DNA of 64,000 nucleotides from Aquisphaera giovannonii. GTDB lineage: Bacteria > Planctomycetota > Planctomycetia > Isosphaerales > Isosphaeraceae. The stretch covers positions 6,510,001-6,574,000 of the forward strand of contig NZ_CP042997.1 in the NCBI RefSeq assembly GCF_008087625.1. Direction: 5' to 3'. Positions 1,028 to 34,300 of the stretch are shown here, one piece after another. The position numbers were made by a program, and so were the translations under genes. A model generated the notes under the pieces. The model saw nothing but the letters and a program-made list of their open reading frames with translations. It was not told the DNA's origin and searched no databases. Within the stretch, counting starts at the first letter, position 1, and each line of letters opens with the position of its first letter.

Positions 1028-1939
1028 CTATTTCGACCCTCGGCGCCGCGATGGGGGGCCGAGCTCGTCGCGGAAGTCTTTGAGGCTCGTGCAGGTGGCC
1101 GCAACCTTGACCAGGGCGTCCAGCCGCGACTCGTCGTCGATGCTGTCGAGCCTGTTGCGGAGGGAAGTGGCCCGATCGCCGAAGCGAGCGGAGAGGAAAT
1201 CGACGATCATTCGGACCTGCGCGGAATGGGTGGCCTCCCGCCTGGCCTGAGTCGCCGCCTCGCGGGTCCATTGTTCCTTCAGTTCCTGGAGTAGTGGCGA
1301 TTCGATCACGGCGGCACTCCCTCCGAGCAATTGCAAGAGCCCTTCGTCATTATACCGAAGGCTGGCGAGCACCTGTGCCACGGCGATCAGATTCTCCTTC
1401 TCCCCCGTGGCCGCTTCGCGGTCGATCCTCTCCTTGCAGCGGCGGAAGACCGGCTCGGGCGGCCCGTCGATGCGGGCCAGGGTGACCCATGGGACGAGGC
1501 CGACGTCGCCGGCATCGAGCAGCTCCGCGGCCGGTATGTTGGCAAGCTCCACGGTATGCCAACGCAGGTGCAGGACCGTCTCGCCCCGCGAGCCGCGGAG
1601 CTCGATGGATCGAGGGATCCGGCGGCCGCCCCGGGGCCGCAGGACCAGGACGACGACCTCCGGCAAGATGCCGCGGTCGAGGTAGACCAGGGCGGCGTCT
1701 CGCAGGGCCTGCTCGGCGATCCGGGGCTCGGGATACGTGGCGATCTCGAGGATGAACAGCTCCGGCTCGCCCGGCGTCGCCCTCCGGACCTCGATCAGCC
1801 CGTCGGGGAACCTCCGGGGCAGGACGAGCTCGGCCTGGAGCGGCCGCCACTCGGCGATGTCGGTGATGCCCGCCAGGCGGAGGATCGAATCGCCGTGGTG
1901 CTGGATCAGCCACTTGCTGCTCTTGTCGTACTCGTGCAT
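1028..1939 (-). CDS. Rpn/PD-(D/E)XK nuclease-like family protein with DUF4351-type tail
   Basis: A 303-residue protein with no signal peptide or membrane segment. The N-terminal half has the pattern of Rpn/PD-(D/E)XK-type proteins that are abundant in planctomycetes and cyanobacteria: WRPLQAELVLPRRFPDGLIE, then ELFILEIATYPE, where the Asp and Glu could be metal ligands. A helical middle contains ASLRYNDEGLL. The last 60 residues (MIVDFLSARFGD...SLRNRLDSI) resemble the DUF4351 tail found in such proteins. Family knowledge: Rpn proteins are DNA nucleases linked to recombination and to transposase-like repeats. The usual final Lys of the nuclease motif is replaced in LEIA, so activity is uncertain. 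The gene stands alone and faces the M1 peptidase. Confidence 0.6.
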   Translation of the reverse strand: MHEYDKSSKWLIQHHGDSILRLAGITDIAEWRPLQAELVLPRRFPDGLIEVRRATPGEPELFILEIATYPEPRIAEQALRDAALVYLDRGILPEVVVLVLRPRGGRRIPRSIELRGSRGETVLHLRWHTVELANIPAAELLDAGDVGLVPWVTLARIDGPPEPVFRRCKERIDREAATGEKENLIAVAQVLASLRYNDEGLLQLLGGSAAVIESPLLQELKEQWTREAATQARREATHSAQVRMIVDFLSARFGDRATSLRNRLDSIDDESRLDALVKVAATCTSLKDFRDELGPPSRRRGSK

Positions 1940-1977
1940 CGCGAGATCGATCCCGCCGGACGGCTACCGGGAAGGGC

Positions 1978-2754
1978 CTAATCTTCCATCCTGTACGACC
2001 ACCCGCCCCACAGGGGCACGAGCAGGCGGTCCCCCGCGATGATCGGCCGGCCACCGGCGCCTGTCTTGTCGCCCGGGCGGAGGCGGACGAAGCCGGCCGG
2101 GCCCGCCGGGTGCGGATCGGTGATGAGCGCCACTCCGTCAGCGTCCGAAGACATCCTCGTCGCGACGACGCGGAAAGGGCCTATCCAGGCCGGCATCGAC
2201 AGGGCTCCCCAGGGGCCGGCGGCGGCCTGATCGGCCATCCGGTCCATCGCCGGCCTGGCCATCAGGAAGAACGCATGGAGGGGCCACAGCGTCGTGAGCG
2301 TGAAGAGGGGGACGCCCAGCAGCACGCCCATCGTCAGCCAGGGCGGGGAGGGGCTGTGCCGCGAATCCTCGCCGTGCCGGCGCTCGAGCGTCGCCCATGC
2401 CGACCCGAATCCGAAGATCAACGGCAGGGCGGCGACGAAGTATCCCACGTAGAAGGCCGGCTGGAACTCCAGGCCGATCGGGATCAGCGTTGAGGCGATG
2501 AAGAGCCCATTGAAGCCGAGGCCAAGCCCCAGGGCGAGCTGCTTCGCGAGCCGGAGACGCCCCGTCCGGACCAGGAACGCCGATCCGGCGTACGCCGCGG
2601 CCGTCGGCGCCATGCCGAGCGCGACGACGCCGAGCGGCGGGGCGGCGATCCCGATCGCCACCGTCGCGATCAGGAGCATGATGACCCACAGCGGGAACTG
2701 AACCCGGGCCGGGGCCCCTGCCGCTGCGGTTCGGAGCGGGGACGGCGGACCCAT
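1978..2754 (-). CDS. Hypothetical integral membrane protein
   Basis: Start chosen at the ATG of MGPPSPLRT, just before the first hydrophobic stretch, giving 258 residues. An upstream extension in the same frame is Arg/Pro-rich and looks non-coding. About five hydrophobic segments are visible: FPLWVIMLLIATVAIGI, then LGVVALGMAPTAAAYAGSA, LALGLGLGFNGLFIAS, FYVGYFVAALPLIFGFG and WLTMGVLLGVPLFTLTTLW. A soluble C-terminal tail of about 85 residues contains short beta-like stretches (FRVVATRM, DRLLVPLWGGWSYR). I do not recognise the family. It has no obvious operon partner, because the Thg1 gene ends 132 bp upstream. Confidence 0.55.
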   Translation of the reverse strand: MGPPSPLRTAAAGAPARVQFPLWVIMLLIATVAIGIAAPPLGVVALGMAPTAAAYAGSAFLVRTGRLRLAKQLALGLGLGFNGLFIASTLIPIGLEFQPAFYVGYFVAALPLIFGFGSAWATLERRHGEDSRHSPSPPWLTMGVLLGVPLFTLTTLWPLHAFFLMARPAMDRMADQAAAGPWGALSMPAWIGPFRVVATRMSSDADGVALITDPHPAGPAGFVRLRPGDKTGAGGRPIIAGDRLLVPLWGGWSYRMED

Positions 2755-4470: not shown

Positions 4471-4808
4471 GGCGAAGCGGCACCGTCCCAACTGCTGGAG
4501 TCCCAACTTGACACTTCGCCGGGGAACCCATGGACACGTGACCACCCGCGTGAGCGGGTGGTTCGGACGGGCGAAGCCTCCAGCCTCCGGCGTCAGCCGG
4601 ATCTGGGGGCCGGCCTCGGCCCGCGGGATGAGGCTGGTCCTCGCCTCGATGCCCCGGCGTCCCGGGTCGCACGGACGTGCGAGGCTGGAGGCTTCGCCCG
4701 TCCGAACCACGATCCGACGATCGTGGTCACCCGTGTATGCGAGGCGGTGCCAACTGTCAATCTCCCGGTGATGGCTCCCCGGTCATTCGGGACGATGCCG
4801 GCGAAGCC
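4471..4808 (+). repeat. Structured palindromic repeat element, copy A
   Basis: About 338 bp that recur, inverted, at 30594-30932. Two 27-bp arms, 4560-4586 and 4682-4708, are exact inverted copies. Each arm is flanked by hairpins. An 8-bp stem with GTGA loop is at 4542-4561, and an 8-bp stem with CGAC loop at 4707-4726. A 6-bp stem with GTCA loop is at 4586-4601, and a 6-bp stem with GGAC loop at 4667-4682. Inner ends read TTGACACTT at 4508 and, inverted, TGTCAA at 4755-4760. Outer ends share GGCGAAGC-like sequence and ATTCGGGACGAT. No protein is encoded. It resembles a REP/MITE-like non-coding element; I know no name for it. Confidence 0.8.
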
Positions 4809-4911
4809 GCTTCGAAACCGGGGTTGACCGCTTACCGGCCAAGGACTTGCGGCGAGGGGCGTGCGCACGCTGCCGGCGACGAGTGAACCCACCAACCGCG
4901 GCTCGCGAGGT

Positions 4912-30593: not shown

Positions 30594-30932
30594 GGCTTCG
30601 CCGGGTTCGTCCCGAATGACCGGGGGGCCATCACGGGGAGGTTGACACTTGGCACCGCCCCGCATGCGCGGGTGACCACGATCGTCGGATCGTGGTTCGG
30701 ACGGGCGAAGTCCCCAGCCTCGCACGTCAGTGCGACCCGGGACGCCGGGGCATCGAGGCGGAGACGAGGCTCCTGCCGCGGGCCGAGGCCGGCCCCCCAG
30801 ATCCGGCTGACGCCGGAGGCTGGAGGCTTCGCCCGTCCGAACCACCCGCTCACGCGGGTGGTCACGTGTCCATGCATCCCCCGGCGAAGTGTCAAGGTGG
30901 GGCTCGAGCATTCGGGACGATCCCGCTTCGCC
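30594..30932 (-). repeat. Structured palindromic repeat element, copy B (inverted relative to copy A)
   Basis: On the minus strand it matches the element at 4471-4808 over its whole length, at roughly 85-90% by eye. The hairpin order is the same. Inner TTGACACTT is at 30642 and inverted TGTCAA at 30890-30895, with the same outer GGC(T)TCGCC/TCGTCCCGAAT ends. One 27-bp arm has two changes relative to the other. The stem of the hairpin equivalent to 4667-4682 in copy A is kept while its loop changes from GGAC to TGAC. It lies inside the long open frame upstream of ispH. Confidence 0.8.
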
Positions 30933-32975: not shown

Positions 32976-33243
32976 CTATCTCAGCGAAAAGCTCGTCTAC
33001 GGTCGCGGACGGGGTCGTCAGCGTTCCTCGAAAGGTGGATGGCCCCGATTGGCCCCCTCGAAAGGTGGATGGCCCCGATTGGCCCCCCCTCGAAAGGTGG
33101 ATGGCCCCGATTGGCCCGCCCCGATTGGCCCCCCTATCTCAGCGAAAAGCTCGTCTGCGGTCGCGGACGGGGTCGTCAGGGTTCCTCGAAAGGTGGATGG
33201 CCCCGAGTGGCCCCCTCGAAAGGTGGATGGCCCCGAGTGGCCC
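32976..33243. repeat. 158-bp direct duplication containing short tandem units
   Basis: ctatctcagcgaaaagctcg occurs at 32976 and again at 33134, each followed by ggtcgcggacggggtcgtca and copies of tcgaaaggtggatggcccc. The first duplication unit holds three roughly 30-bp copies of that motif, the second two. Copy-specific changes (gattgg versus gagtgg) show later divergence. The array replaces the end of the transposase remnant. It starts within the 180 bp upstream of the hypothetical gene at 32794. Confidence 0.8.
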
Positions 33244-34056
33244 CCACCCGGGCCGGCCCTTGGGCTTGGGCCAGGCGACCACCTGGTCCTGCGGCCCGTG
33301 GGCCAGCACCCAGCGGGAGCTCGGCAGGCCCTGCGGCCGAGGGTACGGGCCCTTCCTTCGGGCCGTCGGCCGCCCCGGCGCGAAGTCGACGTTCACCTGC
33401 TGGTGCATGCGGAACACCGCCGAAATACCGCGTCCGAGCAACATCGCCATGTGAGCATAAGAGCAGAAGCCGCGATCTCCGAGGAGTACGTCGCCCGGCT
33501 CCAGGCCCCCCGAGATCGCGCCCGCCCCGGACATGTCGTGGGACCGCAGCGGCGCCGCCGTGACCCGCAGCAGCATGCCGGTGCCGACGTGGAAGAGCAT
33601 CAGCAGCTTGGCCACCGGGAAGCCGCATCCGGGGCGCTGACCGCCGGGCTGGCCGAAGTGCCCCTGCAGCTCCGGGGCGTCGGGCATCGAGACGCTGGAG
33701 CCGTCGACGACCCAGACGCGGTGGCCATGCCAGCGGGAGTCCTCCGAGGCGCCGCGGACCGCCGCGGCGACCCGCCGGACGAGCTCGAGGAAGACGGCCA
33801 GGGGCAGCCGCGAGCGGGCCTTGCAATAGGCCGTGTCGGTGAACTCGCGGCCGCCGATCCGGACGACGTGCCGGCAGGATGTGTCCTCCAGGAGGACCTG
33901 CACGAGGAACAGATAGATGGTCTCCACCGGCCCGAGCTTGCGCCGGCGCCAGCGGTAGCCGACCTCCTTGCAGGCGGCCTCGATCGTCTCCGCGGAGATC
34001 GCGGCGGCCACGTCTTGGCGCAGGCGGCCGAGGATGGAGATCATGCGGTTCGGCAT
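33244..34056 (-). pseudogene. IS4-like transposase, C-terminally truncated
   Basis: About 271 codons remain from ATG 34056 (MPNRMISI). The DDE domain is recognisable: first Asp in VVDGSSVSMPDAPE, second in LLGDRGFCSYAHM. The N-terminal helical part has YRWRRRKLGPVETIYLFLVQ and FTDTAYCKARSRLP. Typical members continue for about 100-150 residues with the YxxRWxxE block that carries the catalytic Glu. Here, after VVAWPKPKGRPGW, the sequence runs into the tcgaaaggtggatgg repeats and reads GPLGAIHLSRGP. The enzyme therefore lacks its third catalytic residue and should be dead. No clear terminal inverted repeats were found. Confidence 0.8.
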
Positions 34057-34187
34057 GGGGGGGCTCCGTGCGGCCTCTCGGTGCGTCCTAGACAAACCGC
34101 CAGGATGTCCGCGGGCCCCCTCGGCCATCAAGAAGCGACAAGTCGTTCACGCCGAAGGCTTTGTGCACTAAGTTCGTGGCATTCTAG

Positions 34188-34300
34188 AATGACCCCCTTT
34201 GCGTTCCCCCCTTTGCGTTCTCTTTGCGTTCTGCCTTTGCGTTCCTTTGCGTTACCCAGAATGACCCCTTTGCGTTACCTATGCCCGAGAATGTCCCCGT
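34188..34300 (+). repeat. GAATGACCCC / CTTTGCGTT micro-repeat cluster, left of the toxin-antitoxin pair
   Basis: Six copies of CTTTGCGTT lie between 34197 and 34276, two of them introduced by (A)GAATGACCCC. A variant is gagaatgtccccg. The 399 bp between the transposase remnant and the antitoxin gene hold nothing else I can name. Copies of the same words recur at 35400-35490 on the other side of the toxin gene. Confidence 0.7.

Follow-up and report, generated by a model that had tools for sequence, protein, structure and literature searches.

A probable REPIN-like dual-hairpin module carried within a MITE in Aquisphaera giovannonii

The transposases TnpA of IS200/IS605 elements and TnpA_REP recognise hairpins on single-stranded DNA. 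Inverted units are usual for REPINs, and the subterminal hairpins of canonical IS200/IS605 elements are not inverted to each other.

Bacterial MITEs, as listed in excerpts of two papers, include RUP, NEMIS, ERIC and Nezha (PMC3733652) as well as MITEAba12 (PMC6382973). For Y1 transposases, excerpts of PMC6006769 describe a TnpA_Y1 subclass 1.2, mostly from Cyanobacteria and Bacteroidetes, that carries the signature Y---Q--HH, is generally found without typical terminal IS200 structures and does not share IS properties, and also a planctomycete-rich group, TnpA_Y1 class 3, whose genes are flanked by atypical structures. IS elements that target REPs are reported in an excerpt of PMC1525189, and P. 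putida "TIRs", degenerate REPs joined to unrelated structures, in an excerpt of PMC3733652; the latter are the nearest printed precedent that we found for such mixing.

The window studied here is a stretch of 64,000 nucleotides within the 10.37-Mb contig of the Aquisphaera giovannonii genome (G000; 10.53 Mb in 3 contigs). Two copies of the element described below lie in it (Table 1). Like bacterial MITEs, this element is short, has terminal inverted repeats, is dispersed beside genes and has a strong secondary structure; unlike them, its interior is a conserved dual-hairpin module that has a distribution, and a candidate transposase, of its own. The module resembles the REPINs and BIMEs that form REPtrons with TnpA_REP (RAYT), as presented in excerpts of PMC3733652, PMC6006769 and PMC3116915, in that palindromic units lie between genes as inverted pairs and also flank a Y1/HUH gene, here at one locus of a sister species (G001) and at none in the own genome. 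Several features set it apart from REPINs: each unit has two hairpins over about 69 nt, the hairpin foot is not GTAG or CGTC (in most of 47 aligned units it reads GTGA on the 5' side, followed by CCAC), the Y1 protein scores as an IS200 and not a RAYT transposase, A and B units are paired in 56 of 59 palindromes, and the best-preserved copies lie inside a MITE. With IS200/IS605 elements the G001 locus shares a Y1/HUH transposase with HUH and tyrosine motifs (PF01797, DHVHL, YIGKQ), unlike them having A and B units inverted to each other. As in the IS-in-REP cases, an insertion element is combined with REP palindromes; unlike in those cases as excerpted, a whole REPIN-like module sits between terminal repeats and is multiplied with them.

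Taken together, we consider it likely that this is a composite non-autonomous transposon, in which a REPIN-like A+B module from an IS200-like element is carried in a MITE. The original prediction for this stretch had called the repeat neither a gene nor a known IS. The repeat is a transposable element, a MITE, whose inner units are probably the two ends of an IS200-like element. Among open-licence PMC papers our searches turned up neither a MITE that holds a REPIN-like module nor an earlier description of this element family, and the excerpts of PMC5352709 contain nothing on repeats of this kind.

Table 1. Positions in the window of the two MITE copies and their parts
Feature	Position	Strand	Evidence or remark
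Left 8-bp target-site duplication GGCGAAGC	4471..4478	.	8/8 identical to 4800-4807
Whole MITE copy 1, 321 bp, A end left	4479..4799	+	Alignment of 30 copies and target duplications
Left terminal inverted repeat GGCACCGTCCCAACTG (family GGSATCGTCCCRAATG)	4479..4494	+	Alignment of copies
Subterminal TTGACACTT ("terminal repeat" of the original prediction)	4508..4516	+	Sequence, alignment
A-type dual-hairpin unit	4537..4605	+	Covariance model R1, 95.9 bits
A unit, outer hairpin	4541-4562		9-bp stem, 4-nt loop
A unit, inner hairpin	4586-4601		6-bp stem, 4-nt loop; read from sequence
Left 30-bp exact inverted arm	4558..4587	+	
Variable palindrome centre	4606..4662	.	Corresponding position holds a transposase gene at one sister-species locus
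B-type dual-hairpin unit	4663..4731	-	R1, 93.9 bits
B unit, inner hairpin	4667-4682		6-bp stem, 4-nt loop; read from sequence
B unit, outer hairpin	4706-4727		9-bp stem, 4-nt loop
Right 30-bp exact inverted arm	4681..4710	-	
Subterminal AACTGTCAA (complement TTGACAGTT)	4752..4760	-	
Right terminal inverted repeat CATTCGGGACGATGCC	4784..4799	-	Sequence, alignment of copies
Right 8-bp target-site duplication GGCGAAGC	4800..4807	.	
MITE copy 2, 322 bp, opposite orientation	30603..30924	-	
Target duplication of copy 2, GCTTCGCC	30595-30602 and 30925-30932		
Copy 2, B-type unit	30671..30739	+	R1, 92.1 bits
Copy 2, A-type unit	30798..30866	-	R1, 95.9 bits

The outer layer is a MITE with 8-bp target duplications

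Searched as DNA against the own genome, the element gave 80 matches at 40 or more distinct places (the best 40 of 227 candidates were scored), each place being matched twice since the palindrome also matches itself on the opposite strand. Identity at these places was 76-95%, the window copy itself apart, and the weakest match covered the core alone. By alignment of 30 copies with their flanks, the element ends were placed at GGSATCGTCCCRAATG and its complement, and both ends were recognisable at 28 of the 30 loci examined. The octamers that flank these 28 copies match at 8/8 positions in 13, at 7/8 in 7 and at 0 to 6 in 8, so that the check for target-site duplications proposed by the original prediction gave duplications of 8 bp, with 20 of 28 copies at 7/8 or 8/8. 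As a control, ends paired across different loci reached at least 7/8 in 38 of 756 pairings.

Copy 1 is accordingly bounded by terminal inverted repeats of 16 bp, beginning with GGCACCGTCCC (from 4479) and ending with GGGACGATGCC (to 4799), with GGCGAAGC outside both. The original interval, 4471-4808, had captured the insertion to within one base, the span including the duplications being 4471-4807, and the repeats that it named as terminal, TTGACACTT and the near-complementary AACTGTCAA, do exist; they are internal and not the element ends. What that reading had overlooked is the transposable nature of the repeat, as seen from its terminal repeats and 8-bp target duplications.

Nine of the 28 MITE copies share one target, namely GGCGAAGC at the start of another repeat. 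These copies are not independent, and 8 of the 9 have octamers at 7/8 or better; without them, 12 of 19 copies reach at least 7/8. The shared insertion place is 8 bp inside one end of this other repeat, which is about 100 bp long (GGCGAAGCCGTTCGAAAACCGAGGTCAA...), and is seen at window positions 4800-4900 and at loci L001, L003, L004, L005, L006, L011, L020, L023 and L026. As related sequence occurs at the syntenic site of Aquisphaera insulae, the ~100-bp repeat seems older, and it may be a preferred target of the MITE.

The 24 copies of 320-323 bp show a mean pairwise identity of 89.5% (75.3-97.8%), and all 28 one of 87.8%. Across the 24 copies of ~322 bp, every reading frame is interrupted by a stop in at least some; one frame stays open in 19 copies and another in 16, as GC-rich related copies can show. 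The MITE is likely without coding capacity. The plasmid collection gave no match.

An element of this kind is also present in the sister species G001, in the best case 72% identical over its whole length. Of the 15 G001 loci examined, 7 carry the terminal repeats; four of these have octamers at 8/8, two at 7/8 and one at 5/8. No credible MITE ends were seen at the other 8. The protein of a gene neighbouring copy 1 has its best named relative in A. insulae (78% identical), which may be the same species as G001. The syntenic intergenic region of that species (NZ_JAALJH010000028.1, locus L031) is shorter and contains no R1 unit; alignment is clear to the right of the insertion point, where TGCAAAGC lies near the place of the window octamer, and poor to its left. 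Sharp shared ends, a target duplication of fixed 8-bp length, multiple dispersed copies and absence from the syntenic region of A. insulae therefore identify the outer layer as a MITE.

The inner units keep pairing while their sequence changes

The interior of the MITE is made of two dual-hairpin units of about 69 nt, A and B, which are inverted to each other. The original prediction had described two exact inverted arms, each bracketed by hairpins with 4-nt loops. The arms are exact, with a length of 30 bp (4558-4587 with 4681-4710) in place of the 27 bp proposed; both kinds of hairpin are there, and the 6-bp stems were correctly read, while the other stems measure 9 bp and not 8. Folded as DNA, the element reaches z = -8.5 (0 of 100 shuffles as good), and the core folded as RNA reaches z = -11.7 (0 of 200 shuffles as good).

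For covariation, 47 of 52 diverse units, taken from 113, were aligned from both sister species, five having been dropped for register or divergence. Of the cells of the two hairpins, 93.8% pair, and the alignment scores 0.418 for covariation, where shuffles reach 0.147 (sd 0.012) and slid structures no more than 0.074. Counts of covarying pairs (7 vs 6.8 in shuffles) and of pair types (19 vs 18.5) showed no excess, because the variation falls into few inherited stem types, so that few of the changes within the two sister species are independent. G013, from another genus, provides a stronger case for paired changes: 25 of 32 outer stems pair at 9/9, with 9 different variable halves that are mostly absent from the common stem types of the own genome. 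The claim that stems differ in sequence and keep their pairing is thus borne out by both data sets. The original prediction had also named the alternative of a chance local palindrome pair, without further copies and without compensatory changes; both further copies and paired changes were found.

The two units are distinguished by their inner stems, of CCGG or CGGG type in A and of GCAC type in B. The two sister species yielded 59 palindromes, of which 56 combine an A with a B unit and 3 could be classified on one side; A+A and B+B were not seen. If units were paired at random, about 29 of the 59 should be mixed, the palindromes being related copies and not 59 independent events. In G013, a simple pattern applied to 14 cores called 11 mixed, 1 B+B and 2 unclear. 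At one MITE copy (L028, G000:C1:8351176-8351493) the centre is flipped relative to the ends, which is consistent with recombination between the inverted arms.

Units beyond the MITE and a Y1/HUH transposase locus

A covariance model (R1) was built for the dual-hairpin unit and 45 genomes of Isosphaeraceae were searched with it. This search of genome and relatives, suggested by the original prediction, yielded dispersed copies and units in 6 of the 45 genomes, from three genera of the family: at least 113 in the own genome, 30 in G001, 1 in G002, 64 in G013, 13 in G020 and 3 in G022. Among 397 genomes from the class (best 12 candidates per genome), units were found in 5 including the own, all of them Isosphaeraceae.

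In the own genome, the arm sequence with up to 3 mismatches occurs 51 times per strand, against 2 and 0 for the reversed control, and these occurrences exceed the number explained by recognised MITEs. We took 20 further unit loci with flanks of about 2 kb, where units score 41 to 62 of 64 to 66. Of their 38 flanks, 17 outscore all 30 shuffles in their likeness to MITE ends, where chance would give about 1, and 21 do not, and 10 of the 20 loci pass the MITE-end test on neither side. So some of these loci are old MITEs with decayed ends and others show no MITE ends; the core either moves alone or outlasts its surroundings.

In G013, a core was recovered from 18 of 20 loci; 16 of these cores measure 143-149 bp and two 156-157 bp, and most end in GTGACC / GGTCAC. 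Among the matches listed at 1 mismatch, no GGSAYCRTCCC-type end lies near these cores, the listed places being elsewhere. Some way out from several cores (L176-L195), on one side or on both, stand GAGAGTCTG / CAGACTCTC. By eye these GAGAGTC-type surroundings resemble a further set of terminal repeats, perhaps the ends of another MITE carrying the same module; no consistent duplication is readable in them.

Y1 gene matches number 6 in the own genome, 10 in G001, 8 in G013, 0 in G020 and 5 in G022. R1 was run on 34 sources with Y1 loci from G000, G001, G013 and G022 (some overlap) and gave confident units in two, contig 244 of G001 and the G000 stretch that holds MITE copy L028. The latter was set aside as a chance case, L028 being an ordinary MITE copy 1.7 and 3.2 kb from two Y1 genes. 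None of the 6 Y1 genes of the own genome has a unit directly adjacent, and no unit-flanked Y1 gene was found in the fragmented assemblies of G013 (64 units) and G020 (13 units).

At the G001 locus, a B unit (1277-1347, 82.5 bits) and an A unit (2036-2104, 89.5 bits), in the same inverted arrangement as in the palindromes, enclose the strongest-matching Y1 gene of that genome (224 aa, 1375-2049, minus strand of L196); the gene sits where a palindrome has its centre. Taken from its first start, the reading frame overlaps the A unit; from a later ATG the protein would be shorter. A complete palindrome (1085-1250) adjoins this A-transposase-B locus. With about 30 units found in the 10-Mb G001 genome, chance is, by our estimate, very unlikely to have placed four units so close (~600 bases) to one of the ten Y1 genes; the arrangement was seen once, in one draft genome.

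The G001 protein matches PF01797 (E 1.2e-27) and the IS200/IS605 model NF033573 (101 bits, cut-off 55) and falls below the RAYT model NF047646 REP_Tyr_transpos (29.9 bits, cut-off 80). Its relatives of solved structure (PDB) include the ISHp608 transposase, and it retains an intact HUH motif (DHVHL) and an intact tyrosine motif (YIGKQDDHH). Read from the translation, YIGKQDDHH fits the Y---Q--HH signature of subclass 1.2, and the structured ends seen here are unlike that subclass as the excerpts describe it. The protein also recalls class 3 in being encoded by a planctomycete Y1 gene with atypical flanking structures; it differs from the excerpted description of that class (NHVH, YV[VI].EQ, foot CnGA) in its DHVH, its YIGKQ and the foot GTGA. 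Two more Y1 genes with a Y---Q--HH-like motif, at L199 and L202 of G013, have quite different short repeats around them, which suggests that several Y1-plus-repeat systems exist in Isosphaeraceae.

In the composite transposon that we favour, the core would most likely be a transposase-less derivative of an IS200-like element with the A and B units as its ends, and the Y1/HUH transposase of the parent element would survive in G001. As far as one locus can indicate, this HUH enzyme most likely recognises the hairpins on single-stranded DNA, which would explain stems that change sequence yet keep pairing. The selection for structure proposed by the original prediction agrees with the paired changes and is probably best read as such single-strand recognition; its four stems do differ, and would correspond to an IS200-like element having two unlike ends, A and B. 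The module would have been captured by a MITE at some point, an order of events that we infer. In the own genome, with no Y1 gene directly beside a unit, the best-preserved copies would have spread as MITE cargo, and the single G001 locus is suggestive of independent movement of the module by the HUH enzyme. Against this composite reading stand the 8 of 28 MITE copies with duplications below 7/8, the fact that there is only one A-transposase-B locus, with no unit-flanked Y1 gene seen in the fragmented G013 and G020 assemblies, the inverted A and B units, which are unlike canonical IS200/IS605 ends, the one B+B and two unclear cores of G013, and the autonomous MITE partner that was not found.

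It is unlikely that the palindromic centre is just the own interior of a MITE, with the G001 Y1 gene between the units by coincidence, having inserted into a palindrome. Such an explanation would fit the best-matching copies, which carry MITE ends, the 10 of 20 further loci that keep an end remnant on at least one side, and the singularity of the A-transposase-B locus. However, units occur in two other genera, the G013 cores stand without a GGSAYCRTCCC-type end nearby among the matches listed, and the strongest G001 Y1 match has units on both sides although R1 finds ~30 units in the 10 Mb. Moreover, the palindromes share their A+B make-up with the Y1 locus, and a passive interior is not expected to show paired changes.

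We also weighed whether the core is kept as a structure useful to the host, a bidirectional terminator or a REP-like mRNA end that, transcribed from either strand, would end or stabilise messages between genes, and which the transposon layers only disperse. Its location would suit this role, 48 of 50 copies being clear of predicted genes (one inside a gene, one overlapping) and 9 of the 20 further loci lying within 130 nt of both neighbours, as would the very stable RNA fold of the core and the units well kept at 10 of 20 loci without recognisable MITE end. The 46 copies with both neighbours called lie in 13 convergent, 24 in-line and 9 divergent contexts; yet this convergent excess is modest (13 of 46 against 5 of the 33 intergenic gaps of the window, the others being 19 in line and 9 divergent), with genes called by a simple home-made codon model. 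Furthermore, the stems of the window copy have no T run after them, and selection against damaging insertions also yields an intergenic location. A host function is quite improbable as the main explanation. A discrete structured regulatory RNA family would account for the strong covariation but is very improbable, given a near strand-symmetric palindrome, its target duplications and high copy number, and the lack of any Rfam family at gathering threshold within the window.

Going beyond the composite transposon as such, we tentatively propose a two-vehicle transposon of 322 bp, possibly mobilised by two unrelated chemistries, a DDE enzyme acting through its terminal repeats and a Y1/HUH enzyme, with the signature of the poorly understood subclass 1.2, acting through its units, whose module might switch MITE backbones and outlive the loss of its transposase. 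The backbones would perhaps be those with GGSATCGTCCC ends in one genus and GAGAGTC-type ends in another. If the composite reading is right, MITEs and HUH/REPIN palindromes, usually separate classes, would be united in one element, and a palindromic module would be seen to persist where its transposase is missing. A Y1 transposase that carries the subclass 1.2 signature would also gain structured ends, and with them a directly testable substrate.

Candidate partners of the MITE ends and an IS4-family element

The MITE layer would be moved in trans by a DDE-type transposase. A transposase sharing the ends of the element, which the original prediction had proposed to look for, was not found in the own genome, at 30 DDE_Tnp_1 loci or among the matches listed for relatives. 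In the own genome, an end-pattern search with up to 2 mismatches gave no plausible autonomous pair, and the only long pair, of 1.44 kb, was rejected as its reading frames are unlike a transposase. At the DDE_Tnp_1 loci (30 of 32 matches), none had matching ends; one weak end pair, with 6 mismatches in total and a duplication of 2/8, was discarded. In relatives, no autonomous element with the MITE ends was seen among the end-pattern matches listed. One 1.5-kb end pair of G001 proved to be an IS4-family IS (NF033592) with its own ends, GAATGCCACGAACTTA, which sits between direct repeats such as GGGTCATTCTG or GGGACGGTCCC, and was therefore discarded as a partner.

A fragment of an IS4-family transposase is also present in the window (33226-34056, minus strand), with two full-length copies, 99% identical to each other, at G000:C1:6989495 and 4217204; its ends are GAATGCCACGAACTTA, and it stands between direct repeats of about 11 bp, of GGGTCATTCTG / GGGACNGTCCC type. 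A MITE-like copy of this IS4-family element, of about 220 bp, occurs in G029 (L141). In the window, the fragment is flanked at 33030-33250 and 34186-34300 by short repeated motifs (TCGAAAGGTGGATGGCCCCGA..., CAGAATGACCCC...).
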